Assembly (NCBI RefSeq): GCF_964033635.1
Contig: NZ_OZ035533.1
Span: 6,295,001 to 6,359,000 of the forward strand
From: Chitinophaga sp. MM2321
GTDB taxonomy: Bacteria; Bacteroidota; Bacteroidia; Chitinophagales; Chitinophagaceae
Direction: 5' to 3'
DNA: 64,000 bases
Part shown: positions 14,096-30,158 of the stretch, piece by piece
Layout of the letters: each line of letters starts with the position of its first letter
Position numbering within the stretch: the first letter of the stretch is position 1
Translations under genes and position numbers: made by a program
The notes under the pieces: generated by a model
What the model saw: the letters and a program-made list of their open reading frames with translations, nothing else
Database searches by the model: none
Told to the model about the DNA's origin: nothing

Positions 14096-16747
14096 TCATC
14101 GCGCAAAATTAGGAACTGCCTGTTTAAAGGAAGTACTTTTCCGGATCAGCTCAATTTGCTGCATGGTATCACATTGCTGTTTGTCCATATTTAACTCCTT
14201 ATATATCTTTTTAAGCAAGCCAAAGTTCATCAGCGCAAGTACTTTAAAATCCAGTTTCTGTGCGTTTTCTACGGCAGTTTCAGCTGTACGGATGGCTTTA
14301 TGAAATTCGTGCTCACTAAAATATACGGTGGCATGCAGTAGTTTATAAAATGCTTCCAGGTATTTGCCACTGAAATAATCGGAGGAATATTTTTTCATCA
14401 CCTTGTCGATATGCGCACACAGGCGTTCTGCTGACTTAATATTGCCGAGTCCCAGGTAAGCGTGGGCTTGCCAGCACAATATCATCAGGCGGAAGGAGTC
14501 TGTTTTGCGGTGCTGTAGCGACGGATAGGTATCAAATAACCGGATGGTAAAATCCAGGAGGCGGTCATAATCTCCCATCAATAAAAATGCGATCCCCATA
14601 TTACGGAATACAATCTCTTGTGATACAGAGATTGGTTTTGGAGAGATCTTGCCCCAGTATTCGGGATAGTTATAGAGCTTGTCGCGTACTTCTTTGTTAA
14701 CGATGCCAAATTTGAGGTGCTCATAAATGAAGAGTAAGATCTCGTAGGGCGTTACCCACAGATCTTCTTCTATTTCGCTTGAACTGCATATTTTTTTAAT
14801 GACATTCAGTTCCATTTCGCATTGCTCTGCGTCCAGTTGCAATACGCCTATGGTAAAGAGCATGTTCCTGATCTTCAGCTTGTCATCCCGGGTTTCTGCC
14901 AGTCCCAGCAAAGCATTCAGCACTTTCCGTTTTCTGAAATGTATAAATTCGTCATTAATAATATTGCTGATGGGATTCTTTTTGAAGAATCCTGTGGGGA
15001 AAATAGACTTGAGTTCTACCTGGTTATTGCCATCGTGTTGATAGTGGAGTACCAGGTATTCCAGCAGGTGTGATTTTTCGATATTGGCCAGCGGCAGATG
15101 CAGCATTTTTATGATGCCGTCTGTTTGCTTATGCGTGATGGCATAACGTAAAAGCCAGCGGAATACACCTATCCGGTAGGGTGATTGCGGGAGGTGCATC
15201 AATATATTCAGGAGCAGGCATTCATTGATTTCCTGGTTGCTCTGTTGCAGGTAATGCATGGCCACAAAGTATTCCAGCAGGAAAGTATGAGCGAAGCGCA
15301 CTTTCACATGAAACATGATTTCCTGGCTCAGATTTTCTTCTACCAGGATATTATCTGCCAGTAATTCTTTATAAGCGGGGAAAAGTTCAGCATTCTGATT
15401 CAGGAGCAGATTTTTATTGGTATAAATACCGTTTTTCCCCATATCCAGCAGCGTTAGCAGCTTTTCAATGATTTTTATTTTAAAGGAATTGCTGGGTGAA
15501 TTGAACACCCTGTTCTGAATGAACCGGGATACAATTTCAAAAAGGCTCAGGTGTTCGTCTACAAAGGTTTGTTCCGGGCCTGCATTTAACTGGCAAAAGA
15601 GCTGCAGGTAGTAAGGGTGTTGCAGTTTTTGCAGGAAGCTTTCGGAAAATGTTTTTACGGTAGCGGGATCGAACTGATGATTATAAAGGATTGATTTTAC
15701 TTCCTGTTCCGCCAGTTGGGGGAGATTGATGTTTGTTTCCTCGTCCATTTCCTGTCCCAGGTACCAGTAGCGGCGGAATGCCGGGTATTGCTGGGAGTGC
15801 TGGAATATTTCAGACCAGGTACTGCTGCGGATGGAGAGGATCACCTTTACCCAGGGGTACAGGTCATTGGAGTATACGAAGTCCTCCAGTTTGGTGTAGA
15901 GTACTTTTAGTTTTTCTCCTGACACGGCGATTTCGTCAAAGCCGTCTATTATTAATATGAGTCGTCCGCCTTTTTTATCGAAGTGGCTGGCGAAATATTC
16001 CCGGAAATTTTCGCCGTTGCCCATGTTCATCTGGTTATCTAGCCAGGCGGCGAGGGAGAATCCTTTGAGGAGGAGACTACCGGCGGCGTGGGCATGAATG
16101 AACCAGCACACATCCTGTTGATACCGCGCTTCCCGTGCAAACCAGAAGTGTTCGGCGAGGTGAACGAGGGCCACAGATTTACCCCATCCGGAAGGGGCTA
16201 TCAATGCAGTGGCGGTATAGTCGCTTTCCAGGAACCGGTCAATATGTGCATTGCAGAACTGCCGGGGTACTGTGTTGGGAAAGGCAATGCCGGAGCGGTT
16301 TTTCAGCGTGAGGATGGTGTAATGGGATACTGCATCGGCTTTGATTTTCAGGTCATCCCATTTTTTGGTGTCCTGTGGAGCCGAATCAGAAGACGCCATC
16401 ATTTTCTTGTAATGATACTGCTGAAAGTCTTCCCAGTCTTTATACTGACAATACTGGGAGAGGGTGTTGAGCGTATAACGGGAAAAGCTGTGTTGTGCCA
16501 CGGCAAATCCGAAAACCCTTTTGAGGGTGGTTTCACTCATCAACTTAGTAGTGCTGTCCAGTATGGACTGGGATAGCTGTTTGCATTCTGCTGGTAAAAT
16601 GACTTCAACACCAAATACCCGCAAAACCTCTTTTTGCAGTGTTATGATGAAGTCATAGGATAGATCAATCATAGGGGACGCTAATGGATTTTGGAATTTT
16701 CGATACCGTTTTAAGTACGTATGCTTCAGCGATTTAGATTTCAACAT
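14096..16747 (-). CDS. NACHT-type STAND NTPase with helical N-terminal module and TPR-like C-terminus
   Basis: An 883-aa signal-transduction ATPase. Residues about 30-115 form a small helical module with SETTLKRVFGF and YTLNTLSQYCQYKDWEDF, a pattern that recurs at the N-terminus of Bacteroidota proteins and looks helix-turn-helix like. The P-loop is PSGWGKS (185-191) and the Walker B LILIIDGFDE (263-272), with the extra acidic residue typical of NACHT. The rest is helical, with TPR-like repeats toward residue 880. Proteins of this build act as transcriptional regulators (MalT-like logic) or as defence sensors (Avs-like). No effector domain is obvious, and boxes just upstream favour a regulatory role; this is inference. 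It heads a leftward gene run. Confidence 0.8.
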   Translation of the reverse strand: MLKSKSLKHTYLKRYRKFQNPLASPMIDLSYDFIITLQKEVLRVFGVEVILPAECKQLSQSILDSTTKLMSETTLKRVFGFAVAQHSFSRYTLNTLSQYCQYKDWEDFQQYHYKKMMASSDSAPQDTKKWDDLKIKADAVSHYTILTLKNRSGIAFPNTVPRQFCNAHIDRFLESDYTATALIAPSGWGKSVALVHLAEHFWFAREARYQQDVCWFIHAHAAGSLLLKGFSLAAWLDNQMNMGNGENFREYFASHFDKKGGRLILIIDGFDEIAVSGEKLKVLYTKLEDFVYSNDLYPWVKVILSIRSSTWSEIFQHSQQYPAFRRYWYLGQEMDEETNINLPQLAEQEVKSILYNHQFDPATVKTFSESFLQKLQHPYYLQLFCQLNAGPEQTFVDEHLSLFEIVSRFIQNRVFNSPSNSFKIKIIEKLLTLLDMGKNGIYTNKNLLLNQNAELFPAYKELLADNILVEENLSQEIMFHVKVRFAHTFLLEYFVAMHYLQQSNQEINECLLLNILMHLPQSPYRIGVFRWLLRYAITHKQTDGIIKMLHLPLANIEKSHLLEYLVLHYQHDGNNQVELKSIFPTGFFKKNPISNIINDEFIHFRKRKVLNALLGLAETRDDKLKIRNMLFTIGVLQLDAEQCEMELNVIKKICSSSEIEEDLWVTPYEILLFIYEHLKFGIVNKEVRDKLYNYPEYWGKISPKPISVSQEIVFRNMGIAFLLMGDYDRLLDFTIRLFDTYPSLQHRKTDSFRLMILCWQAHAYLGLGNIKSAERLCAHIDKVMKKYSSDYFSGKYLEAFYKLLHATVYFSEHEFHKAIRTAETAVENAQKLDFKVLALMNFGLLKKIYKELNMDKQQCDTMQQIELIRKSTSFKQAVPNFAR

Positions 16748-17281
16748 CCTGGAATGAACAAAATGAACAGAATATATTAATTCTGTTCATATAGATAAAT
16801 ATTTACAATGAATGGGCTTTCCCCAATAATATAAGAATGAATATCATATATAAATATGAGATAAGCAAGTTTATAATGGAAAATAACGCTTGCAAATTTT
16901 CCATATATATATATTAAAAAAATATTAAAAAGACAATATTTCCTTTCCTGGCCACACAAAATAATTTTAAAATGAGGCTTTCAGAAGCCTTTTCCTTTGT
17001 TCAGCCCGCTACCAAAATGAATAAAATGAACAGAGATTTTGCAAAATGAACAGAAAGATTTCTGACAGCAAAATGAACAGAAATGACCTGCACAATAACG
17101 GCATGTTCATTATACTTTCGTACCACTTATATAACAAAGCTTTAACATTTTAAAGGGAAGAGGTACTTATTAAAACCCTGTATGCTTTCCATTAGAGCTT
17201 GTTCATAACCTATCCGCCGCCTAAGAGTTTTTATCGTAACTGATTGAAACTGAAAATTCCTTTATTCAAATATTTGATGCT
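16748..17281. promoter_or_regulatory. Divergent regulatory region with an array of ATGAACAGAA boxes
   Basis: This 534-bp AT-rich gap separates the NACHT gene from the giant adhesin. Boxes on the plus strand: ATGAACAAA near 16754, ATGAACAGAA at 16763-16772, ATGAATAAA near 17017, ATGAACAGA at 17026-17034, ATGAACAGAA at 17046-17055 and 17073-17082. Minus-strand copies: 16781-16790, 17104-17110 and 17200-17206 (TGTTCAT). The pair 16763-16772/16781-16790 makes a 10-8-10 palindrome ending 6-45 nt before the NACHT start codon. Pairs at 16754/16763 and 17017/17026 are both spaced 9 bp. The concentration is far above chance, which suggests a regulator binding region. Confidence 0.7.
17113..17120 (+). 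promoter_or_regulatory. Candidate -7 element for the adhesin operon
   Basis: TACTTTCG is close to the Bacteroidota -7 consensus TAnnTTTG. No TTTG is present about 19 nt upstream; instead the region upstream carries ATGAACAGAA boxes (nearest at 17073-17082, roughly 35 bp upstream). This would suit an activator-dependent promoter with a 5' leader of about 155 nt. Placement is tentative. Confidence 0.35.
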
Positions 17282-20200
17282 ATGCATTCAAACGCTACTC
17301 CTAATTGCCCTTTTATTGCTATCCCGTGTACCTCAGCACCTTCGGGAGAAACTACCTTGAAACCCAATGTGCCGGTTGCCCGTAAATGGAGGTCCCGTCT
17401 TACCTGGAAAAGCCTGCTCCTGTTGCTCCTACTATTCGGATGGAATATGATGGACGGCCAGGCACAAACCCAAACAAAACGTGTTTACGCCGATCACCAG
17501 GTAAATGATGTTGTCACAACCGGTCTGGGTGTGTGCGTGTTGTGTAATGTAGCTAAACCAGACAGCGCGATAGACGTTACCGGTACTACATTCTTGAATA
17601 CTGCCGCTGTGCTGAATGCTGGTGTGGTAGTTGGCCTGGGTAATGTGGTCGTTTATGAAGATCTTATTTTCCCTGCGGGCCAAACCCCAACCGGAGCAAT
17701 GCCCGGCGCTGTGAAAGTTGGTGTGGGTTCTGCCCTCTCAGCTGCCCTTTTCGGCGGCATTACTATTCAGGCTTATAATGGAGCGTCTCCGGTCGGAAGT
17801 CCAGTACCCGCTTCCGAGGCTATCCTGAATTTATTGGCCAGCGGAAACCAGGCTGAAATATTTTTACCGGCTCCCGGAGCTGCATATGATAGAATCAGGG
17901 TGTCTATCAACGGCGGACTGCTGTCGGCTGCTGTAAGTATCCTTGTTTATGCTGGCTACTACGATGCACCGGCCACCGGAGCGATAGCTTGTGATGCCCC
18001 GATTGATGTGCTTTATGGAAGAGTTGGAGCACTGGCTACCCTTGGATCAATTTCGGGTGTGGCAAATGCAGTGGACGGAAATCCGACAACTTTCGCCCAG
18101 TTGAATACAACAGCAGGAACAACATTATTAAACAGCTATGCACAACTTACAGCTATCTACCCGGGATTATCCAAATCAGGGGATTCTGTTCGTATCATAC
18201 TTTCCAATTCAGGCGTTTTATTAAGTGCAGATGTATTGGATGCCATCACTATTGTTACCTACAACAGGAATACAGTGGTGGATTCCATTCGTGGCAATAG
18301 TAGTTTGTTGAAAATTAACCTGCTGTCTGGCAGCTCTGGCCCACAAACAATGACCTTTGCTTCCGCCGGCCAATTTGATCATATTCAGGTGAGGTTTGGT
18401 TCAGTGGTAAGCGCATTGGCTACCTTAAATGTGAATGAAATCCAACGTATGGGCCCCGCTCCCGCTACCGGAGGCGTATCGAAAACAACCTGCCTGAATA
18501 CGACCCCTTTTACCCTGGATGTGCTTAGTCCGGATAATACCAATCTTAATTACACCTGGTACGACTCTACTAATACACAGGTAGGTACCGGCAGTTCTTT
18601 CTCTCCAGCAACAAATACAGCGGGATCTTTCCGCTATTATGTATCGGCTACGAGAAAAACCTGTACCACCGAATCCGCCAAGGCACTGGTTACATTGGTG
18701 GTAACCGCCGCCGCCACTGCCGCAGATATTACACTGGCTGATACTACAATCGCCTGTGTAAGCAATACGGCAGTGCTCAATCCTACATCCACCACGGTAA
18801 CCACACCTGTTTTTAAATGGTATAAAAATGCAGACAGAACAGGTCCTGTTACCAACGGACTTACAGAAGGTGCAGTTACCTATGCTGTAGATGCTGCCGG
18901 TAAACTCACTATCACCGGTCTTACTGCCGGCAATCATACTTACTATGCAAGTGTAAGCGGTACTAACTATTGTGAAAATGAAGCGAATGCATTGAAAGCG
19001 GCTGTTGTAAAAGTGGTTACAGCACCGGCCTCTCCTGTAGTTACTGGAGATGTAGTCGTAGCAACCGGTCAGCCGGCTACACTGACTGCCGCCGCCGTAC
19101 CCGGGGCTACTATTACCTGGTATGCGGATGGCATCACCCCCACGCCTGCGGGAACCGGAACCAGCTTTGTAGTAGGTCCGTTTACCAACCCGGGCACTTA
19201 TACTTACTACGCATCTGTGAACATAGCCGGCGCCTGCGCGTCAGCACGTGTAGCCGTAAACGTAGTAGTAACAGGACCGGTTATCCCATCTCCTGATTGT
19301 AATGTTCCTACCAGCCAGGCATCCGGAACTACACTGGGTTGTGTCCTTTGTAGTGTAACAGATCCAACGGCTGATATAGATAATATCACCACTAACTTTA
19401 CCCACCTGAATATACCGGTAGGCTTACTGGGAGGTTCCGTTTATCAGCAACTGATATTCCCTGCTTCCGGTGCTGCCGGCGACAGTGTAATGGTTAACCT
19501 TGCAGCGCCCGGCGGACTGGCAGATGTGAGTCTCTTCGGTGGTGTGGTTATTACCTTATATAATAACAGTACAGTGGTGAAAACAGAAACGCTGTCACAG
19601 CTACTCACACTCCGCGTGCTGAGTGGTGACCAGTTTGCTGCTACCGTAGCAGCTACTGCTCCATTCAACCGCGTGGAAGTGAAACTGACAGGAGTGGCTA
19701 CGTTGCTGACTTCAATTGATATTTATGGTGCACGCATCTTTTATGCTAATCCCACTATAAATGCTCCCAATACCAGTGTGTGCATCAATAACAAAACAAC
19801 CTTGTCTGTAACACCGGCTGCGGGTACAACCGTACGCTGGTATGCAACTGCTACAGGCGGTACTGTATTAAGTTCACTAAATACTTACACAACAGACAGC
19901 CTGAAAACAGCTGGTACTGTAACCTATTATGTGGAAGTAGTGGGCGCCAATAGTTGTGCGAATCCTACACGGGTGCCGGTTAATGTAACGGTAACACCAG
20001 CCGGTACTGCCGCAGATATCACACTGGCTGATACTACAATCGCCTGTGTAAGCAATACCGCGGTGCTCAATCCTACATCCACCACGGTAACCACACCTGT
20101 TTTCAAATGGTATAAAAATGCAGACAGAACAGGTCCGATAACCAACGGGCTTACAGAAGGTGCAGTTACCTACGCAGTAGATGCTGCCGGTAAACTAACT

Positions 20201-23200
20201 ATCACCGGTCTTGCTGCCGGCAATCATACTTACTATGCAAGTGTAAGCGGTACTAACTATTGTGAAAATGAAGCGGGTGCATTGAAAGCGGCTGTTGTAA
20301 AAGTGGTCACAGCACCGGCCACTCCTGTAGTTACCGGAGATGTAGTCGTAGCAACCGGTCAGCCGGCTACACTGACTGCCGCCGCCGTACCTGGGGCAAC
20401 TATTACCTGGTATGCGGATGGCATTACCCCCACGCCTGCGGGAACCGGAACCAGTTTTGTAGTAGGTCCGTTTACTAACCCGGGCACTTATACTTACTAC
20501 GCATCTGTGAACATAGCCGGCGCCTGCGCGTCAGCACGTGTAGCCGTAAACGTAGTAGTAACAGGACCGGTTATCCCATCTCCTGATTGTAACGTTCCTA
20601 CCAGCCAGGCATCCGGAACTACACTGGGTTGTATCCTTTGTAGTGTAACGGATCCAACGGCTGATATAGATAATGTCACCACTAACTTCACCCATCTCAG
20701 TATGCCGGTAGGTTTACTGGGAGGTTCCGTTTACCAGCGACTGATATTCCCAACTCCGGGAAGTGCCGGCGATAGCGTACGGGTTGTTTTTGCAGCACCT
20801 GGCGGACTGGCGGATGTAAGTCTCTTCGGTGGTGTGGTTGTTACCTTATATAATAATGGTACACTGGTGAAAGCAGAAACGCTGTCACAGTTGCTCACAC
20901 TCCGCGTGCTGAGTGGTAATCAGTTTGCTGCTACCGTAGCAGCAACTGCTCCTTACGACCGCGTGGAAGTGAGGTTAACAGGAGTGGCAAATCTGCTGAA
21001 TGCTATTGATATTTATGGTGCACGCATCCTGTATGCTAACCCCATTATAAATACAACTACAGACACGGTGTGTATCAATAACAAGGCAACCTTGTCTGTA
21101 ATACCTGCTGCGGGTACAACTGTACGCTGGTATGCAACTGCTACAGGCGGCACTGTATTAAGTTCACTAAATACTTATACGACAGACACGCTGAAAACGG
21201 CGGGTACTGTCACCTATTATGTGGAAGTAGTTGGCGCCAATGGTTGTGCCAATCCAACACGTGTACCGGTAAGTGTAACGGTGTCTCCTGCGCCGGTAGT
21301 ACCTGGTCCTGATGCAACGATCAACCTGTGTCCTGGCTCAGACGCCTCATTGACAATACCTACACCGGATCGTACCATGACTTACAGGTGGTACAATGTA
21401 GCCACCGGCGGCACCAAGCTGAATACTGACAGCGGTTATGTTTTCAAGGCGCTGGCAATTAACCGGGATACTACTTTCTTTGTGGAAGCAGTAAGCAGTT
21501 GCGGTGCAGTATCTCCAAGACAGGCCGTTCACCTGGTGATGTCATCTTCATTGAGTGCGCCTGCTGTTGCACCGAATCCTGATTCGGTAAATATTGGTAC
21601 CCAGGCAGTACTCACTGCATTTACGCCTGCATCCAACGCCATCTATACGTGGTATGGCAGCCAGGCCGGCAATGATAGCCTCTTTACAGGACCTACCTAT
21701 TCTCCGCCTACGCGGGCTACAGCAGGAACTGTTATCTATTGGGTACAGGCTTCTATAAGTGGCGGTGGTAGCTGCCAATCAATTCGTGTGCCCGTTACCG
21801 TTGTTTATGGCGCATTCAATAATCCAACACCGGTACCTTGCGAAGGCGCCACTTCCCAAACAATCGGAGGAAGCGGATTGCTGATACTGGGTAACGTATA
21901 TAACCCGGCGCTCGCCGTAGATAATGACGCCAGCACAGGTGCTTCTCTCGTTATAAATCTTGGTGCACTCAATGCACAGGTTTGGGAAAGAGTGAAGTTC
22001 AATGGTGTATCTGTTCCGGGTGACACCGTAAGGGTATTACTGTCAAGCCCAAGCCAGGTACTTGCTGCCAGCTTATTGGGCGGTGTGCAACTGACTACTT
22101 ATAATGGCACCACCCCGGGCGATTCTGTAATGGCGAATAATCCATTAATCAAACTCGTGCTGCTGAGTAGCAGCAGACAAGCGATACTTGAATTTGTTCC
22201 CACACATCCGTTTGATGCGATAGAAGTGAAACTGAAATCCGGTATAGTGGGTGCATTAACAACAATAGATTTCAACTACGCACAGCGTGCCCTGGTACAA
22301 CCTAAAGTACAGGCTGCCGAGGTAACTGTATGTGCAGGTAATACCACCACACTCGGAGTACAGAATCCGGTGACTGGCATCACCTACCGCTGGTATACTG
22401 CCAACGGAAATTACCTGGCAGGTAAAGACGGTGCTACCTTCACTACCGGTGTACTTACTGCAGACAGCAGCTTTTTTGTGGAAGCATTCCGTAATGGTTG
22501 CGCCAGCAAAGGCAGGGCAAAGGTAGCGGTGAAAGTAGCAGCAGCACCTGCGGCGCCTGTTGTACAGGCAACCGATGTAAAGGTGTGTGCGGGTTCTGAT
22601 GCAGTACTGGCCGTTGCCACACCTGCAAAAGGATACAGCTACAACTGGTATAATGTAGCTAACGGCGGTACCAAATTAAATACAGATAGCGGTTTTACTT
22701 ATAAAGTGGTAAATGTGACAGCACAGGCCATCTACTATGTGGAAGCAGTGAACGACAGTTGTAATACAGTTTCTGCAACAAGAACAGCAGTTACAGTAGG
22801 TACCGCTTCTTCCCTGGCTTCACCTGTGGTAACCCCTGCGGCTGATACCGTAATAGTAAATCAACAGCCGGTATTTACAGCTACTGCATCATCTGCAAAC
22901 GCTGAATTCTACTGGTTTGCCAGTCAGGCCAGTACAGATACGTTGTTCAAAGGCGCCATTTTCGCGGCACCTGCATCTGCGACCCTTGGTACCATTACTT
23001 ATTGGGTGGAAGCAGCTTTACCTGGTGCAGCCAGTTGTAAGTCTGCAAGGATACCGGTGAATGCAGTAACGGTAACGGATATACAAAATCCTGTTCCTTG
23101 CGAAGGTGCTACCAGTCAGACGATTGGCGGCTCCGGACTCCTGGTGCTGGGGAATGTATACAACCCGCAACTGGCGGTAGATAACAGTGCCAATACGGCT

Positions 23201-26200
23201 TCTTCGCTGGTTATTAACCTCGGCGTACTGAATGCAACCGTATGGCAGAGGGCATTCTTCAACGGCTTATCCACTCCGGGTGATACCGTTAAAGTAATGC
23301 TGTCCAACCCCGGTCAGATCCTTTCTGCTGCGGTACTCGCAAGCGTTCAACTCACTACTTATAGCGGTAATGTACCGGGCGATTCCGTACTGGTATCCAA
23401 CCCGCTCGTTCATCTCAATCTGCTCAGCGGCGGCAAACGTGCACTGTTGTATTTCGTTCCTACCAAACCATTTGATGGTGTGGAAGTGAAACTGAAATCA
23501 GGCATAGTAGGTGCGCTGACAGAAATTGGCTTCAACTATGCACAGCGTGCCATTGTACAACCAACTGTACAGGTAACAAATGCAGCGATATGTAAGGGTA
23601 CACAGGCTACCCTCAGCGTAGTGAACCCTGTGTCCGGCGTTGTATATAGCTGGTTTGATGGTCAGGGCCACCACCTGCTCGACAGCATCGCTTACATGAC
23701 ACCTGCAACACTCGATTCCGGTACCTATACTTACACCGTAAGGGCCACCAGGAATGGTTGTCAGGGTGCAGCATCTGCTCCGGCACAAATTACCGTACAG
23801 GGAACACCTGCGGCGCCGGTTATTGCGGCTTCCGCTATCAGTATCTGTGTGGGAGATAGTGCTACACTTACTATTCAGAATGCCATCAATACAGTTACCT
23901 ATCGCTGGTACACTGCGGCAACCGGAGGAGCACTCCTGTTTACCGGTCCTGTTTACGTAGTAAAAGGACTCACGGCATCAGCAGATTTCTACGCGGAAGC
24001 ATCTTCCGGTAATTGCAGCGGTGGTGCCAGAACCAAAGTATCCATCGGTGTGGGAACAGCTCCTGTACCTATCCTGGATGCAAATCAGGTAACCGTTTGT
24101 GAGGGCGGTACTGCCATACTGAAAGTAACATCCTCTGTTAATAATGTCACTTACAACTGGTACACTACCGCTACCGGCGGCACCAGCATCTTTACAGGAC
24201 CTATCTTCACAACACCTGTTGTAAATGCTACAACAAAATACTATGTAGAAGCAGTAGGTGATATCAACAAATGTGGCAAGCCTTCTACCCGTGCTGTGGC
24301 TACTGTGAATACAGTACCTGTGCCAGCGGCACCGGCAGTAATAAGTGCCAATGTAAATACCTGTGTAGGTCAGGCGACCACTCTTGCTGTGAAGAATCCG
24401 CAGGCAGGTGTAACCTATCAGTGGTTTGATGCTGCTACCGGCGGTACCCTGGTATTCACCGGACCGGTATTCAACGTAACAGCAGACAGCAGCCGTACTT
24501 ACTATGTGCAGGCTCTTGTTGGTAACGGTTGTCCAAGCGCCACCAGAACAGCTGCTGCTATCACTGCCAGCAGTGTACCAACAGCCCCTGTTATAGCAGC
24601 ATCTTCTTTGTTTGTTTGCCAGGGTGGATCAGTAACGCTTGCTGTACAAAAACCGGCATCAGGAGTTACCTATCGTTGGTTTGATGCGGCTACCGGTGGT
24701 AATCTCCTCTTTACCGGAGCAAACTATATCACTGGTGCGTTAAATGCCAGCACTGATTTTTATGCAGAAGCAAGCAACGGTAATTGCAGCAATGCGATCA
24801 GAACAAAAGTATCCATAGGTGCAGGGCAAGCACCAACACCTGTACTCGAATCCAATAGCTTAACGGTTTGTCAGGGTGGAACAGCTACCCTCCGTGTAGT
24901 ATCCGCCACCAATGGTATTACCTACAAATGGTATACTGTGGCAACGGGTGGTACCGCGGTATTCACCGGACCGGATTATACAACCGGTACATTGACTAAC
25001 AGCATCGATTTTTATGTAGAAGCAACGGGAGATATTGCCCAGTGCGGTAATCCTTCTGCAAGGGTAAAAGCATCCGTAACTGTGGTGTCAGCTCCTGCTG
25101 CACCGGATGTAATGGCTGCAAGTCTCAAAACATGCGCAGGTACCGGTATTACTGTGGCAGTGAAAACACAACAGCCAGGTCTTACCTATCAGTGGTTTGA
25201 TGCAGCTACAGGTGGTTCATTGCTCTTTACAGGCCCTGTTTATAATGTGCCGGTGGTCAATAACAACACCACTTACTTTGTGCAGGCAGTGGTTGGTACA
25301 GGTTGTACCAGTGCTACCAGAACACCGGTAAGTGTAACGGTTGATCCGGCTCCATCAATTCCTTCCATAGCTACCGGTGATGTAGTCACCTGTATTGGCG
25401 GAACAGCCACCTTCAGCGTGCAGAATCCGGATGCGGCACTTACCTATCGCTGGTATGATGCACCGTCTAATGGTATGCTGCTGGCAACAGGTACTGCCTA
25501 TACAACTGCGCCATTAGGACTTACTACTGCTTTCTATCTGGAAGCCACGAATAACGCTGGTTGCAGTAGTGCCCGTAAAGGAGTAAAAGCAACAGTCGTA
25601 ACAACCATAGATGCGCCACTGGCTGATCCGATCACGATCTGTAGCGGTCAGACAGGCATATTGAGTGTGAAAAACAAAGTAAATGGTGTCATCTATAACT
25701 GGTACACTTTAGCCCGTGGTGGAGCATCGGTATTCACTGGTGCAGACTTCACCATCACACCAACAGTGGGTGCTACCTACTACCTGGAGGCAGCTACCAG
25801 CGGCGGTTGTGTAAGCGCCAGCAGAACAGTGGTAATCGTAACCGTGAATCCTTCCCCTGCGGTACCGGCAGTAGCCAATGCTACTATAGAAGCCTGCCAG
25901 GGTCAGACAGCTACACTGAACGCACTGAATCCGGATGCAACACTTACTTACAAATGGTATACTACCCCAACCGGTGGTACACCAGCAGGAACCGGCGCAT
26001 CCTTTATCACACCAGTCATCACCGCTAACCAGATGTACTACCTGGAAGCTACCAATAACAATGGTTGTCCGAGCGCAAGCCGTACAGCTGTCAGTGTAAA
26101 CGTAACACCTTCCCCTGCCAGTCCGATGGTAACGGGTAATGAAGCAGGTGTTTGTCCTGGTAGCACTGCAACGCTCACGGCAACATCCAATGCTGCCGGT

Positions 26201-26920
26201 GCAGACTTCCGCTGGTACAATAGTTCAACAGGTGGTACGCCGTTATTCACCGGTGCAGTATTCACTACACCTGCGATCACTGCAAATACCACTTACTATG
26301 TGGAAGTATTCACTACAGGTGGTTGTGCCAGCACGGCGAGAACAGCGGCAGCAGTAGTTGTCCTGCAACCACTGGCTACACCGGTTGTGACAGTAGATAT
26401 TACCACTGCCACCTCTATCACTTTCCGCTGGAACGCGATTACCGGTGCACAACGCTATGAAGTAACACTGGATAACGGTGTCACCTTCATCCCACCGTCA
26501 TCAGGTGCTAATGGTACCACACATACTGTAACGGGGCTGCAACCTAACCAGAACGTTACGCTCCAGGTAAGGGCCATAGGCGCCTCTACATGTCAGAACA
26601 GTGCTTTGTCAGCCGGCGTAACAGGTACAACAGCCAATCCGCAGGGCAACAACATCTTTGTACCAAACCTCTTCAGTCCGAACGGCGATGGTGTCAATGA
26701 TGTTCACCTTGTATATGGTACCGCAATAGCCCAGCTCGAATTCAGGATCTATAACCAGTGGGGTCAGCTTGTATTCACCTCCAAAGATCAACGCCAGGGA
26801 TGGGATGGTACCATGGGCGGACAGAAACAACCAGTGGGTGTATACGTATACATTGTTAAGGCTACAATGCAGGATGGATCAGTGATTACGAAGAAAGGAA
26901 ACGTAACACTCATGCGATAG
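17282..26920 (+). CDS. Giant multi-Ig-domain surface adhesin with type IX (type B) C-terminal domain
   Basis: A 3212-aa cell-surface protein of SprB-like organisation, exported by Sec and then the type IX system. Signal peptide: long polar leader, then LLLLLLLFGW (about 46-56), ending GQAQ. Six about 155-aa beta-rich units (A1-A6, from about residues 73, 236, 671, 1101, 1517 and 1937; marked by I/LC/GxV and AVD-like words) alternate with about 23 Ig-like domains (B; typical VCxGxxxTL...TYxWY...GGT...YYVEA...GC) carrying a Cys-Trp-Cys core. A fibronectin-III-like domain (about 3030-3118) precedes the gliding-motility C-terminal domain (3123-3212: PNLFSPNGDGVNDV, WDGTMGG, PVGVYVYIV). PorP/SprF and OmpA genes follow. 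Role in adhesion or gliding is inferred; ligand unknown. Confidence 0.9.
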   Translation: MHSNATPNCPFIAIPCTSAPSGETTLKPNVPVARKWRSRLTWKSLLLLLLLFGWNMMDGQAQTQTKRVYADHQVNDVVTTGLGVCVLCNVAKPDSAIDVTGTTFLNTAAVLNAGVVVGLGNVVVYEDLIFPAGQTPTGAMPGAVKVGVGSALSAALFGGITIQAYNGASPVGSPVPASEAILNLLASGNQAEIFLPAPGAAYDRIRVSINGGLLSAAVSILVYAGYYDAPATGAIACDAPIDVLYGRVGALATLGSISGVANAVDGNPTTFAQLNTTAGTTLLNSYAQLTAIYPGLSKSGDSVRIILSNSGVLLSADVLDAITIVTYNRNTVVDSIRGNSSLLKINLLSGSSGPQTMTFASAGQFDHIQVRFGSVVSALATLNVNEIQRMGPAPATGGVSKTTCLNTTPFTLDVLSPDNTNLNYTWYDSTNTQVGTGSSFSPATNTAGSFRYYVSATRKTCTTESAKALVTLVVTAAATAADITLADTTIACVSNTAVLNPTSTTVTTPVFKWYKNADRTGPVTNGLTEGAVTYAVDAAGKLTITGLTAGNHTYYASVSGTNYCENEANALKAAVVKVVTAPASPVVTGDVVVATGQPATLTAAAVPGATITWYADGITPTPAGTGTSFVVGPFTNPGTYTYYASVNIAGACASARVAVNVVVTGPVIPSPDCNVPTSQASGTTLGCVLCSVTDPTADIDNITTNFTHLNIPVGLLGGSVYQQLIFPASGAAGDSVMVNLAAPGGLADVSLFGGVVITLYNNSTVVKTETLSQLLTLRVLSGDQFAATVAATAPFNRVEVKLTGVATLLTSIDIYGARIFYANPTINAPNTSVCINNKTTLSVTPAAGTTVRWYATATGGTVLSSLNTYTTDSLKTAGTVTYYVEVVGANSCANPTRVPVNVTVTPAGTAADITLADTTIACVSNTAVLNPTSTTVTTPVFKWYKNADRTGPITNGLTEGAVTYAVDAAGKLTITGLAAGNHTYYASVSGTNYCENEAGALKAAVVKVVTAPATPVVTGDVVVATGQPATLTAAAVPGATITWYADGITPTPAGTGTSFVVGPFTNPGTYTYYASVNIAGACASARVAVNVVVTGPVIPSPDCNVPTSQASGTTLGCILCSVTDPTADIDNVTTNFTHLSMPVGLLGGSVYQRLIFPTPGSAGDSVRVVFAAPGGLADVSLFGGVVVTLYNNGTLVKAETLSQLLTLRVLSGNQFAATVAATAPYDRVEVRLTGVANLLNAIDIYGARILYANPIINTTTDTVCINNKATLSVIPAAGTTVRWYATATGGTVLSSLNTYTTDTLKTAGTVTYYVEVVGANGCANPTRVPVSVTVSPAPVVPGPDATINLCPGSDASLTIPTPDRTMTYRWYNVATGGTKLNTDSGYVFKALAINRDTTFFVEAVSSCGAVSPRQAVHLVMSSSLSAPAVAPNPDSVNIGTQAVLTAFTPASNAIYTWYGSQAGNDSLFTGPTYSPPTRATAGTVIYWVQASISGGGSCQSIRVPVTVVYGAFNNPTPVPCEGATSQTIGGSGLLILGNVYNPALAVDNDASTGASLVINLGALNAQVWERVKFNGVSVPGDTVRVLLSSPSQVLAASLLGGVQLTTYNGTTPGDSVMANNPLIKLVLLSSSRQAILEFVPTHPFDAIEVKLKSGIVGALTTIDFNYAQRALVQPKVQAAEVTVCAGNTTTLGVQNPVTGITYRWYTANGNYLAGKDGATFTTGVLTADSSFFVEAFRNGCASKGRAKVAVKVAAAPAAPVVQATDVKVCAGSDAVLAVATPAKGYSYNWYNVANGGTKLNTDSGFTYKVVNVTAQAIYYVEAVNDSCNTVSATRTAVTVGTASSLASPVVTPAADTVIVNQQPVFTATASSANAEFYWFASQASTDTLFKGAIFAAPASATLGTITYWVEAALPGAASCKSARIPVNAVTVTDIQNPVPCEGATSQTIGGSGLLVLGNVYNPQLAVDNSANTASSLVINLGVLNATVWQRAFFNGLSTPGDTVKVMLSNPGQILSAAVLASVQLTTYSGNVPGDSVLVSNPLVHLNLLSGGKRALLYFVPTKPFDGVEVKLKSGIVGALTEIGFNYAQRAIVQPTVQVTNAAICKGTQATLSVVNPVSGVVYSWFDGQGHHLLDSIAYMTPATLDSGTYTYTVRATRNGCQGAASAPAQITVQGTPAAPVIAASAISICVGDSATLTIQNAINTVTYRWYTAATGGALLFTGPVYVVKGLTASADFYAEASSGNCSGGARTKVSIGVGTAPVPILDANQVTVCEGGTAILKVTSSVNNVTYNWYTTATGGTSIFTGPIFTTPVVNATTKYYVEAVGDINKCGKPSTRAVATVNTVPVPAAPAVISANVNTCVGQATTLAVKNPQAGVTYQWFDAATGGTLVFTGPVFNVTADSSRTYYVQALVGNGCPSATRTAAAITASSVPTAPVIAASSLFVCQGGSVTLAVQKPASGVTYRWFDAATGGNLLFTGANYITGALNASTDFYAEASNGNCSNAIRTKVSIGAGQAPTPVLESNSLTVCQGGTATLRVVSATNGITYKWYTVATGGTAVFTGPDYTTGTLTNSIDFYVEATGDIAQCGNPSARVKASVTVVSAPAAPDVMAASLKTCAGTGITVAVKTQQPGLTYQWFDAATGGSLLFTGPVYNVPVVNNNTTYFVQAVVGTGCTSATRTPVSVTVDPAPSIPSIATGDVVTCIGGTATFSVQNPDAALTYRWYDAPSNGMLLATGTAYTTAPLGLTTAFYLEATNNAGCSSARKGVKATVVTTIDAPLADPITICSGQTGILSVKNKVNGVIYNWYTLARGGASVFTGADFTITPTVGATYYLEAATSGGCVSASRTVVIVTVNPSPAVPAVANATIEACQGQTATLNALNPDATLTYKWYTTPTGGTPAGTGASFITPVITANQMYYLEATNNNGCPSASRTAVSVNVTPSPASPMVTGNEAGVCPGSTATLTATSNAAGADFRWYNSSTGGTPLFTGAVFTTPAITANTTYYVEVFTTGGCASTARTAAAVVVLQPLATPVVTVDITTATSITFRWNAITGAQRYEVTLDNGVTFIPPSSGANGTTHTVTGLQPNQNVTLQVRAIGASTCQNSALSAGVTGTTANPQGNNIFVPNLFSPNGDGVNDVHLVYGTAIAQLEFRIYNQWGQLVFTSKDQRQGWDGTMGGQKQPVGVYVYIVKATMQDGSVITKKGNVTLMR
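18690..21290 (+). repeat. Two tandem about 1.29-kb copies inside the adhesin gene
   Basis: The segment from about 18722 recurs from 20012, a shift of 1290 bp (430 codons) that keeps frame. The first about 740 bp of each copy is almost identical at DNA level (for example GCTGATACTACAATCGCC in both), while later parts have drifted more. Each copy encodes domains B-B-A-B. Recent duplication or gene conversion is the simple reading. Confidence 0.85.
21320..23840 (+). repeat. Older about 1.26-kb tandem copies inside the adhesin gene
   Basis: CCTTGCGAAGG at 21837 recurs at 23097, a shift of 1260 bp (420 codons). The protein words NVANGGTKLNTDSG / NVATGGTKLNTDSG and CEGATSQTIGGSGLL occur once in each copy. 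Identity is clearly lower than in the upstream pair at 18690-21290. Each copy encodes the same B-B-A-B domain order. Confidence 0.75.
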
Positions 26921-26968
26921 TATCCAGTTTTGACACCGTAGTTTGAATCGTAAAATCATTAATAATAG

Positions 26969-27003
26969 CCGGGATGCAAATGCTGCATTGGTTTGCATCC
27001 CGG
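26969..27003 (+). terminator. Strong hairpin between the adhesin and porP genes
   Basis: Perfect 12-bp stem CCGGGATGCAAA (26969-26980) with TTTGCATCCCGG (26992-27003) and an 11-nt loop. It sits between the adhesin stop (26920) and the PorP/SprF start (27033). There is no long T-run, so it may act as an attenuator or mRNA-stability element rather than a full terminator. Confidence 0.65.
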
Positions 27004-27032
27004 TTAATCTTGAACAAGTAAAAAATGTTCCT

Positions 27033-28040
27033 ATGAAAAGGATTTTTATTGTTGCAATACTTTTATGGAGCAGTTTGTTGCCCGGAGTATCTGTTGCTCA
27101 GGTGGATCCTCACTTTTCGCAGTATTATGCTTATCCGTTGTGGTTAAATCCCGCATTGACCGGTGTTATAGATGGTGACTACAGGATCAGTGGTGACTAT
27201 CGTAACCAGTGGGCCAACTATGGTAAACCATTTTCTACAGCCGGTATTTCGGTAGATGCTGCCACCGATAAAAATATAGGTGTAGGTCTCAATGTAGTGA
27301 ACATGTCTGCCGGTGATGCCGGGTATAATTATTTTAATGGCATGGCCAGCGTATCCTATAGCGGGGTAAAATTTGGAAAAACACAAACAAGCCGCCTCGT
27401 TTTTGGTCTTCAGGCCGGCGTGATCAACAGAAGGGTTGATCCGGCTAAATTCCAGACCGGTAGCCAGTATCAGCCTGTAATAGGTTATGATCCGAGTATT
27501 GCCAATGGTGAAAATGTAACCACCACTTCTTCTTCAGCATTTGATGCTGGTGCAGGTGCGGTGTTTTTTGATGGCAATCCTAATCATATGTTTAACCCGT
27601 TTGCAGGATTTGCTGCTGCGCATCTTACACAACCTAAAGATCCGTTTGGATCTGCGGGATCAGACAAAAGATTGCCTGTCCGCTACCTCTTTCATGGTGG
27701 TACAAAAATAAAATTGAATGAGCAGTTCAGTCTTACGCCAACAGGGCTTTACATGCGTCAGGGGAATGCAGAAGAGATCGTAGCCGGCATGTATGCACAG
27801 CTGGCGGTAAACCCGGAATTTGACTTCCTGCTAGGTGGTAATTACCGCTTTAATGATGCGGTGATTCCTTTTGCCGGTTTCCATTTCAGAAACTTTGTAC
27901 TGGGACTCAGCTATGATGCCAATGCATCTAATATGCGCCGCCTGGTGAATGGCAGTCAGAGCTTTGAAGTATCTCTTTCCTTCATCAGCCGTAAAAGAAG
28001 AGTGCTCAATGAAGAATATTTTATTTGTCCCAGGTTATAA
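27033..28040 (+). CDS. PorP/SprF family type IX secretion outer-membrane protein
   Basis: Outer-membrane beta-barrel of the PorP/SprF family, which works with the type IX machinery; SprF-type members help deliver the adhesin encoded next to them. The 335-aa protein has a signal peptide (MKRIFIVAILLWSSLLPGVS) and the family N-terminus DPHFSQYYAYPLWLNPALTG (about 22-41). Later strands include FSTAGISVDA and FAGFHFRNFVLGLSYD. ATG at 27033 is the natural start; an upstream in-frame TTG at 26943 would add 30 residues before the signal peptide. It lies between the adhesin and the OmpA-like gene in the same orientation. Confidence 0.92.
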   Translation: MKRIFIVAILLWSSLLPGVSVAQVDPHFSQYYAYPLWLNPALTGVIDGDYRISGDYRNQWANYGKPFSTAGISVDAATDKNIGVGLNVVNMSAGDAGYNYFNGMASVSYSGVKFGKTQTSRLVFGLQAGVINRRVDPAKFQTGSQYQPVIGYDPSIANGENVTTTSSSAFDAGAGAVFFDGNPNHMFNPFAGFAAAHLTQPKDPFGSAGSDKRLPVRYLFHGGTKIKLNEQFSLTPTGLYMRQGNAEEIVAGMYAQLAVNPEFDFLLGGNYRFNDAVIPFAGFHFRNFVLGLSYDANASNMRRLVNGSQSFEVSLSFISRKRRVLNEEYFICPRL

Positions 28041-28106
28041 TTCGCACCTTGAAATCCTATTAGAATGGAGGAAAATATTTATACAGAAACAAGAAATGGT
28101 ACCCTC

Positions 28107-30158
28107 ATGAAAAAAATTATACTCTGCTGGCTGGTAATTTTTGCAGGAATAATTAACTCCATACAGGCGCAGTATGTTTATGATTATAAGCATACTGCTG
28201 ATATCTATTACAACGCAAGAGATTATTATTCTGCTGCACAGTATTACAATAAAGCCCTTGGCAGCTTTAAGATAAAACCAGAACAGGTACTGCCCTATAC
28301 CATTGCCGGTGTTGTTCCCCCTAAAGGCAAGCTGAAAGACTACCAGCAGGTAGTAGCAAGGTTAGCAGAATCTCACCGCCTGTACAACGATTTTGGCAAT
28401 GCTGAAAAATGGTATGCACAACTGGTCGGTTTCAATAATCCACAATATCCCCAGGCGACTTATTGGTATGGTATCTGCCTCAGGGCTAATGGAAAATATG
28501 AGCTGGCGCTGGAAGAATTTAATAAATTCAAAAAGAGCTATACAGCGGCAGACGAGCTATCTGCCCGTGTTCCGCTTGAAATTGCCTGCTGCGAATTTGC
28601 CATAGCGGAAGCAGGCCGGCAGCCGCGGTTTACCATCGCCAAAACTTCCGGTAATGTAAATGAAGGCGGCGCTAACTACGCCCCCGTAGTGATAGATCAG
28701 GGTACAATCATGTTTACCTCTTCCCGTGCCGATAATCCTCCTTTGCCCAACGGCACCAAAACCAGTACAAAGCAAAAGGCAAAAGATAAAAAGGGTACGC
28801 CTTATGTAAATGATCTCTACACCGCTATAGGTGGTAATAATAATTTTGAACACAGTCGCCGGGAGAAGATTCCTGCTACCAAAGGATATGATCAGGGCGC
28901 TGCTGCCTTGTCGCCGGATGGGTACTCATTGTACGTAACCCGGTGGACGGTAAAGAACGGGGTAAAACAATCTGCTATCTACCTGAGTACAAAACATGGA
29001 GACAGCTGGCAGGAACCTAAAATATTGGGAAGTAATATCAATGTGGAAGGCTATAACTCCATGCAGCCCTTTATTACAGCGGATGGCAAATACCTGCTGT
29101 TTGCCTCCAACAGGCCCGGGGGCATGGGTAAAAATGATCTCTGGTATTGTATTATGAACGGAACTGTACCGGGTGGTGCACGTAATATGGGTACGGCTAT
29201 TAATACCAAAGATGAGGAACAGGCCCCTTTTTATGATGCAGAAAAAAATGTGCTGGTATTTAGTACGGATGGCCGTGTAGGTCTTGGCGGTATGGATTTT
29301 TTCCAGAGTGAAGGCGACTTTGGTACCTGGTCAGCACCGGTAAACATGGGTAAGCCGCTGAATTCCCCTAAAGATGATATCTACTATACGGCATTGAATA
29401 GTAAACATCCTTTTGCCGCAGGGTTTATCAGTTCAGACAGGGAGTCGATCTGCTGCCTGGAAGTTTTTGGTATTAGCAGGATCCGCAAAGTGGCCAGTGG
29501 CCTGATCCTGGATTGTGATACACACCAGCCGCTGGAAGGCGCAACCGTTACCCTGCTGGATACTATCCGCCGGAAAACGATTCAGACAATTACCCTGGAT
29601 GAAACCGGCCGTTACAGTTTTGAAGTAGATGTACAACGCTATTATAAAGTGGTGGCCGAAAAGGAAAATTATTTTACCAAAGCCATCTACTTTAATTCGG
29701 AGTCACTCACAAGTGTAGACTCTATGGATAACCCAACCCTTTGCCTCAAACATTATGAAGTAGAGAAACCCATTGTACTGGATAATATCTACTATGATTT
29801 CGGTAAAGCTACCTTGCGTCCTGAATCCCAAATGGTATTGGATACAGTGGTGGATATGCTGAATGATAATCCAAAAATTACCATTGAAATGAGTGCACAC
29901 ACAGATAGTGTCGGCTCCGTTAAATTCAATGATCAATTATCACAGGAACGTGCACAGTCATGCGTGGATTACCTGATCAGTAAAGGCATTTCATCAGAAA
30001 GACTTATCGCAAAAGGATATGGCAAATCACATCCGATTGCACCTAACTCGCTGCCTAATCATAAAGATAATCCGGAAGGCCGTCAGATGAACAGGCGGAC
30101 AGAATTTAAAGTGTTGAGCAAACAGGTGTCTGTAAGTACAGACAACAGCAGTCAGTAA
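28107..30158 (+). CDS. OmpA family protein with TPR-like, PD40 and carboxypeptidase-regulatory-like domains
   Basis: A 683-aa outer-membrane-associated protein of the type found after PorP/SprF genes. Order: signal peptide (to about residue 22), helical TPR-like region (about 25-180), PD40/WD40-like propeller (about 195-455, with repeats such as FTSSRADN, LSPDGYSLYVTRW, FASNRPGGMGKNDLW and FSTDGRVGLGGMDFF), a Cna-B/CarboxypepD_reg-like domain (about 470-545, LEGATVTLLD), and a C-terminal OmpA peptidoglycan-binding domain (about 570-675: YYDFGKATLRPES, AHTDSVGS, AKGYGKSHP). ATG at 28107 gives a clean signal peptide. A terminator follows at 30226. It likely anchors the adhesin/PorP complex to peptidoglycan. 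Confidence 0.92.
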   Translation: MKKIILCWLVIFAGIINSIQAQYVYDYKHTADIYYNARDYYSAAQYYNKALGSFKIKPEQVLPYTIAGVVPPKGKLKDYQQVVARLAESHRLYNDFGNAEKWYAQLVGFNNPQYPQATYWYGICLRANGKYELALEEFNKFKKSYTAADELSARVPLEIACCEFAIAEAGRQPRFTIAKTSGNVNEGGANYAPVVIDQGTIMFTSSRADNPPLPNGTKTSTKQKAKDKKGTPYVNDLYTAIGGNNNFEHSRREKIPATKGYDQGAAALSPDGYSLYVTRWTVKNGVKQSAIYLSTKHGDSWQEPKILGSNINVEGYNSMQPFITADGKYLLFASNRPGGMGKNDLWYCIMNGTVPGGARNMGTAINTKDEEQAPFYDAEKNVLVFSTDGRVGLGGMDFFQSEGDFGTWSAPVNMGKPLNSPKDDIYYTALNSKHPFAAGFISSDRESICCLEVFGISRIRKVASGLILDCDTHQPLEGATVTLLDTIRRKTIQTITLDETGRYSFEVDVQRYYKVVAEKENYFTKAIYFNSESLTSVDSMDNPTLCLKHYEVEKPIVLDNIYYDFGKATLRPESQMVLDTVVDMLNDNPKITIEMSAHTDSVGSVKFNDQLSQERAQSCVDYLISKGISSERLIAKGYGKSHPIAPNSLPNHKDNPEGRQMNRRTEFKVLSKQVSVSTDNSSQ

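Follow-up and report, generated by a model that had tools for sequence, protein, structure and literature searches.

Among regulators of the STAND type, MalT, the maltose activator of E. coli, is described in part of one account as oligomerising first and then binding several sites cooperatively, with the DNA bound by its C-terminal domain (PMC10427625). AfsR and large SARP regulators of Streptomyces carry, according to the sections concerned in a second source, an N-terminal DNA-binding domain, a nucleotide-binding oligomerisation domain (NOD) and tetratricopeptide repeats (TPR), and act at direct-repeat operators near the core promoter (PMC10936776). In the present study, we analysed 64,000 nucleotides of the genome of Chitinophaga sp. 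MM2321 (contig NZ_OZ035533.1, positions 6,295,001 to 6,359,000 of the forward strand; hereafter the window), where an array of short boxes lies between a STAND regulator gene and a divergent adhesin operon. Our results suggest that the STAND protein is very likely an activator: once it has oligomerised, its N-terminal helix-turn-helix (HTH) domains would bind tandem box pairs cooperatively and recruit RNA polymerase. Judged by sequence, the boxes are real, look functional and are widely conserved.

Box pairs and the adhesin promoter

The preliminary description of the window had reported at least eight copies or near copies of ATGAACA(GAA), and eight exact copies of ATGAACA were confirmed, at 16754, 16763, 17026, 17046 and 17073 and, on the minus strand, at 16784, 17104 and 17200. 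The heptamer occurs 25 times in the window, where 100 shuffles gave a mean of 10.9 and never more than 22; eight of the window's copies are crowded into these 453 bp. Alignment with 20 near relatives revealed boxes repeated head to tail at 9 bp, in pairs that form the unit of the array. A single pair is close to the STAND gene; on the adhesin side, three more follow one another at distances of 29 and 27 bp in the window and run up to a conserved TAC(A/T)TTCG. The two 9-bp-spaced pairs described earlier were both recovered. One is the STAND-proximal pair TGAACAAAATGAAC (16755..16768, plus strand), with a proximal pair present in 34 of 52 sequences, and the other is the first adhesin-side pair TGAATAAAATGAAC (17018..17031, plus strand), which aligns with the pairs of near relatives. 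The second adhesin-side pair (17047..17061, plus strand) is degenerate in its second half here, where many aligned relatives have TGAAC, and the third, promoter-proximal one, TGAACAGAAATGACC (17074..17088, plus strand), lies with its first T 39 bp ahead of the -7 element. The exact 12-mer AAAATGAACAGA has 8 copies genome-wide, four of them in this array. The count of strict pairs in the window (3 vs 0.78 expected) is not significant alone, and the third of them lies at 25917, within the adhesin gene.

The 10-8-10 palindrome of the preliminary description is present, even as 11-6-11, but its second arm (16781-16790) was not conserved in the 20-relative alignment; likewise, the plus-strand copies are conserved but the three minus-strand copies are not kept as boxes. 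Because of this lack of conservation, the second arm and two of the minus-strand copies (17104, 17200) are probably due to chance, and the palindrome and the minus-strand copies were rejected as operators. The in-frame ATG at 16747 would give a frame of 883 aa, but the STAND gene (14096..16672, minus strand, 858 aa) probably starts at Met26 (ATG 16672), given the 858-aa database gene call, the conserved MIDLSYD start and a model confidence (pLDDT, predicted local distance difference test) of about 28 at residues 1-30. The STAND-side pair would therefore lie about 83-96 bp upstream of the gene, and its adjoining the start codon was rejected.

A homologue-alignment search found 178 relatives, from which 78 loci were kept: 51 Chitinophaga-type (L039-L089, two labelled otherwise) and 27 others, mostly Pedobacter. 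The record of L090 is labelled Beijerinckiaceae yet holds a Bacteroidota-type locus, and the label is probably wrong. A large divergent open reading frame (ORF) adjoins the STAND gene in 76 of the 78, the exceptions being L088, which has no adhesin, and L110, in which a second STAND gene lies between. In L088 (8000-10060, Chitinophaga sp. CF118) the STAND gene and the boxes are kept while the adjacent adhesin gene is missing. The 76 STAND/adhesin gaps among L039-L116 total 39,776 bp, and STAND identity in this set goes down to about 25%. They hold 138 strict pairs in forward orientation and none reversed, where dinucleotide shuffles give 0.9 and 0.15; the consensus, AATGAAYRAAATGAAYRR, consists of tandem 9-bp direct repeats oriented toward the adhesin. 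We looked for loci with both genes but without the boxes, which would have spoken against the proposed regulation, and found at least one strict pair in 75 of the 76 gaps and a degenerate pair at the right place in the sole remaining one (L061). Outside the gaps, the same loci hold 34 pairs in 1.64 Mb, so that pairs are 167-fold denser within the gaps. Furthermore, the same architecture was found in Pedobacter at about 25% STAND identity, with arrays of ATGAAYAAAATGAAY followed by AATGAAYRR, so that the boxes co-occur with homologues of the STAND and adhesin genes across two families. The commonest distances between half-boxes in the 76 gaps were, in order, 9, 19, 28, 29, 20 and 38 bp, followed by 27, 18, 56 and 47 bp; these look like a lattice of about 9.4 bp, which is only suggestive because the sequences are related.

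The -33 consensus of Bacteroidota promoters is TTTG. The -7 element of the adhesin operon, TACTTTCG (17113..17120, plus strand), is kept as TAC(A/T)TTCG in the 20 aligned near relatives, and, as had been described, no TTTG or TTG was seen about 20 bp upstream of it (by eye, in the window only). The -7 elements found here (TACTTTCG, TACATTCG and TAGATTTG) are like those of Bacteroidota sigma-A promoters (TAnnTTTG); unlike in those promoters, the place of the -33 element, judged in the same way, adjoins a box pair. With a strict -7 pattern, TGAAY stood 37-39 bp before the element in 46 of 51 Chitinophaga-type cases (window included) and in 16 of 26 others, against median counts per offset of 1 and 0, respectively. 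When TAnnATTG, as found in one Pedobacter group, was admitted after the alignment had been seen, the spacing of 37-39 bp was found in 69 of the 76 gaps, though some single matches may be chance; ten other 3-bp offset bins had 5-24 gaps each, except for 51 gaps at 65-67 bp, where the next pair upstream lies. In four of the seven gaps missing this spacing (L057, L069, L085 and L086), TGGAT occurs at 38-39 bp; in L079, TGAAT stands 39 bp ahead of TAATTTAG, and L092 and L114 showed nothing convincing at 37-39 bp. The -7 box of Bacteroidota is placed at -12 to -5 in the relevant part of one report (PMC9723704), and the last pair computed from it spans about -50 to -37, a position where an activator contacting RNA polymerase could bind, beside the missing -33. 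A fixed spacing of the site to the -7 element and no -33 (by eye, window only) are the marks of an activator-dependent promoter, and it is on these grounds, the 37-39 bp spacing and the missing -33, that activation is supported.

Autoregulation, the other half of the regulatory proposal in the preliminary description, fared less well. Of 52 sequences, 34 have a pair near the STAND start that is reversed as seen from this gene; at +51, 20 of these show TA and 4 the full TAnnTT. Control of the STAND gene through its own reversed pair is plausible, but it is weaker than activation because the full TAnnTT at +51 occurs in only 4 of 34.

The operon behind this promoter encodes, all on the plus strand, a giant Ig_7 repeat adhesin of 3212 aa with a CHU_C/type B sorting domain of the type IX secretion system (T9SS) (17282..26920), a PorP/SprF-like membrane protein (26943..28040) and an OmpA/PD40/TPR protein (28065..30158). 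On the adhesin side, a PorP match was found in nine loci (L051, L054, L061, L065, L070, L090, L091, L105 and L106), and an OmpA/PD40 protein follows it in seven of them (all but L054 and L105). In the family sample of 147 genomes, 10 had a full-length-type STAND match (that of G096 holds stops) and 9 had an adhesin frame of more than 2500 aa, all 9 being among the 10 STAND-positive genomes. In G030 the STAND gene was present and the adhesin was not detected, and three genomes without STAND had shorter adhesin matches only. The adhesin leader contains a possible second promoter, a common TTCNTAACCTA stretch.

The STAND protein compared with MalT and AfsR

In the structure model, the STAND protein has a conserved layout of N-terminal HTH, NACHT and TPR. 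The predicted HTH domain (16397..16663, minus strand; residues 29-117 of the 883-aa frame, which is used for numbering) carries the candidate recognition helix SETTLKRxFGFA, the NACHT-type NOD (15242..16372, minus strand) covers about residues 126-502, and a C-terminal TPR-like superhelix (14099..15241, minus strand; about residues 503-883) is the candidate sensor. The core is P-loop NTPase-like in the model, and NLRC4 and Avs4 align to it from residue 126, as they might for an NLRC4-like core. Its P-loop and acidic Walker B are present with their residues conserved: in an alignment of 37 sequences including the query, G187, G189 and G269 were invariant and K190 and D268 were kept in at least 90%. 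The Pfam NACHT score of 20.2 bits lay below the gathering threshold of 26.7, nSTAND3 was also weak and below its cut-off, and precomputed PF05729 matches were found on 5 of the 101 homologues listed. The names listed for the family are only 'NACHT domain-containing' or 'hypothetical/uncharacterized'.

The N-terminal model is all-helical, without strands. Its core, SETT.KR..G.A, was invariant in 61 sequences, and the predicted five-helix domain may be of XRE or lambda-repressor type, with fold matches of modest score to C.Esp1396I, EspR, DdrO, TP901-1 CI and POU-specific domains. Pfam and NCBIfam reported no HTH family for this domain, and a PDB sequence search with the HTH profile gave no relative (best E 0.23). 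The profile was matched in all 79 Chitinophaga genomes of the genus sample, split into two pieces in G210. In the window's genome, a single contig of 6.78 Mb, it found one confident copy, that of the STAND protein, with the next match at E 0.5. The STAND protein had been named as the natural candidate for the regulator, and the conserved predicted HTH in one confident copy points the same way. The sequences themselves establish the pairs, their orientation, spacing, conservation and linkage, together with this copy and the predicted fold; that the STAND protein binds the boxes we infer, as we do activation by it, its oligomerisation, its autoregulation and a ligand.

By analogy, this regulator would work like MalT and AfsR, yet it belongs to neither family, since the position of its HTH differs from that of MalT, and its domain type and repeat spacing from those of SARPs. 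The C-terminal TPR part may resemble domain III of MalT. However, the C-terminus is modelled as TPR-like, with no Pfam match to a DNA-binding HTH of the MalT type; in this regulator an all-helical HTH stands at the N-terminus, the core is NACHT-like, and micropeptides and surface proteins make up the targets. The order of parts (DNA-binding domain, NOD, TPR) and the direct-repeat sites are shared with AfsR, as far as that system is covered in the source above. SARPs, in the same partial account, have an OmpR-type domain with BTA and 11-bp repeats, the 3' repeat lying 8 bp from the -10 element. Here the N-terminal model is all-helical and XRE/POU-like, with no Pfam match to an OmpR-type winged HTH or BTA, and instead of 11- or 22-bp repeats there are 9-bp repeats, the pair starting 38 bp from the -7 element and ending about 24 bp before it.

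Further sites in Chitinophaga genomes

A motif scan of the genome, as proposed earlier, indicated possible targets beyond the array: a three-box pattern had 13 matches in the genome as a whole against 0 for the reversed pattern string, which served as the genome-wide control. Weak sites were hardly above their control (99 vs 55 for the pair pattern with two mismatches). Across the genus, arrays of a pair plus a box occurred in at least 71 of the 79 genomes, and the reversed control had 0 matches.

The clearest further group lies before rpsJ, where box pairs were found at 5096570-5097670 of the window's genome. This gap contains four DUF805b RNA elements (RF02914), three above the family cut-off and one 0.2 bits below, each preceding a tiny ORF such as MNLLNQLLATLVALLQSLLGGL (by eye); the cluster (L147 9475-10670, which is G000 C1:5096475-5097670, G000 being the window's genome) lies between an outer-membrane protein gene and rpsJ. 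Three of the four elements have a box pair 68-98 bp upstream; within 1.5 kb of the genome's five remaining DUF805b matches, two of which fall below the cut-off, there was none. A pattern of a pair followed by GAAAACC was matched in 60 of the 79 genus genomes, against 2 control matches, and some of the matches listed look like chance in coding sequence. We read 31 loci, 30 from this search and L147. Units combining a pair with the RNA core numbered 42, in 22 Chitinophaga loci. In every one of them TAnnTT stands exactly 38 bp from the pair, a spacing that was no part of the search; 37 were tallied by script, and 5, in which the script had halted at an earlier TAnnTT, were checked by eye. A family peptide of 20-31 aa and amphipathic type was called by the script for 36 units, and the remaining six had a different, a shorter, a longer or no ORF. 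Among peptides selected beforehand for length and a glycine motif, the differences within the 22-aa group (n=14) numbered 545, 117 and 727 at codon positions 1, 2 and 3, so that it looks translated, and 38 of 38 peptides were more amphipathic than their own shuffle mean. These peptides may act on membranes or be secreted. Among the 147 genomes of the family sample, the DUF805b-type promoter pattern was found in 10, with 2 control matches, and only the two matches in Chitinophaga seemed genuine by eye. Co-occurrence with the STAND gene is uninformative within the genus because the HTH is in 79 of 79 genomes.

A second geometry was seen about 105 kb from the STAND gene in the window's genome (L149 10089-10121), at a site that we take to lie beyond thiH, and in five relatives (L263, L266, L271, L272 and L273) picked, for their common neighbourhood, from 14 loci read. 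Here, reversed pairs stand exactly 51 bp before TAnCTTTA (by eye), and behind it comes a short, conserved and hairpin-bearing segment that is probably a short transcript. In addition, a box array upstream of a response-regulator-like gene, a possible target, was observed in the window's genome (L148 8457-8490) and in one relative (L256). Recurrent pairs with a AACCTATGCCAACTTTAGAG-like stretch resembling part of the adhesin leader were seen in L150 (9377), L257, L262, L248 and L267, and in the last four their neighbour looks, by eye, like a glycoside hydrolase gene.

Alternative readings and a proposed switch

It is unlikely that the boxes are operators of another transcription factor encoded elsewhere, with the STAND gene merely a target or an incidental neighbour. 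What weighs against the STAND protein as their reader is that boxes were also found far from its gene, as they would be for any regulator, and that a further, weaker HTH-profile match, to proteins with a related HTH, was present in 55 of the 79 Chitinophaga genomes. However, the boxes remain linked to the STAND and adhesin genes in two families, and the only confident copy of the HTH in the window's genome is that of the STAND protein. Moreover, 19 relatives that share only the HTH and differ in its recognition helix were sampled, and none had TGAAY pairs in the 250 bp upstream; direct repeats were more frequent there than in shuffles (55 vs about 10), 28 of the 55 belonging to one simple repeat (L023), and had no common motif. 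These proteins of about 400 aa (L019-L032, L034-L038), some of which show by eye what looks like a membrane segment, are probably part of a wider group of regulators in Bacteroidota. L110 (Pedobacter sp. Hv1) also has, in tandem upstream of its matched STAND gene, another one whose HTH is related.

Repression of the adhesin operon by a box-bound STAND protein is quite unlikely. Multiple tandem sites may serve repression also, and the pair near the STAND gene could repress the protein's own promoter; yet the last pair lies 37-39 bp upstream of the -7 element without overlapping it, the -33 is missing, and the DUF805b-led promoters retain the same geometry. A role as an NLR-like anti-phage defence protein, to which the boxes would be unrelated, is very improbable. 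NACHT proteins are common in bacterial immunity, and there is a weak NCBIfam likeness to an antiphage NACHT protein (14.9 bits vs a cut-off of 1000). However, the HTH is present in 79 of 79 genus genomes and STAND adjoins the adhesin in 76 of the 78 loci whose neighbours were read, which does not fit a mobile defence gene; a PADLOC search gave no match, and the N-terminus is a predicted HTH rather than an effector such as a nuclease. The boxes could also be chance repeats or what is left of a repeated element, as the AT-rich gap and the three unconserved copies among the eight might suggest; this is hardly credible and was refuted at the sequence level by 138 pairs vs 0.9 expected, their single orientation, the fixed promoter spacing and 0 matches of the reversed control string in 79 genomes.

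We thus favour the STAND activator. In the mechanism that we propose, the MalT-like TPR part would sense a signal; with ATP, the NACHT core would then open and form oligomers in which several N-terminal HTHs are lined up for tandem boxes. The operator unit would be a head-to-tail AATGAAYRA pair 9 bp apart, and several such units are stacked ahead of the adhesin promoter. From a site at constant distance to the -7 element, the STAND protein would recruit RNA polymerase and turn on the adhesin, PorP/SprF and OmpA genes. The same pair at 38 bp would drive the cluster of DUF805b-led amphipathic micropeptide genes, and the reversed pair at the STAND gene's own probable promoter would perhaps provide self-control. 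It is possible, if short of probable, that one STAND sensor coordinates the adhesin with PorP/SprF and OmpA, the DUF805b-led peptides of 20-31 residues and a short conserved transcript, through an undescribed N-terminal HTH with two pair geometries (direct at 38 bp and reversed at 51 bp), as an NLR-type switch for surface or self-recognition that works through transcription, not cell death.

Among the titles and abstract openings listed in an open-access literature search, none dealt with this STAND regulator, its boxes or the peptides. The present analysis assigns a predicted binding site, promoter geometry and target set to a large unnamed protein family found in 79 of 79 sampled genomes of the genus, one species of which, C. 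pinensis, has been described as hard to manipulate genetically (PMC13070061). If the present reading is true, Bacteroidota would possess a STAND activator akin to MalT and AfsR whose DNA-reading domain is of another kind, and such a regulator would be connected with surface adhesins of the T9SS and with conserved genes for micropeptides. For regulon prediction in related genomes, the operator and its distance from the -7 element would be precise enough.
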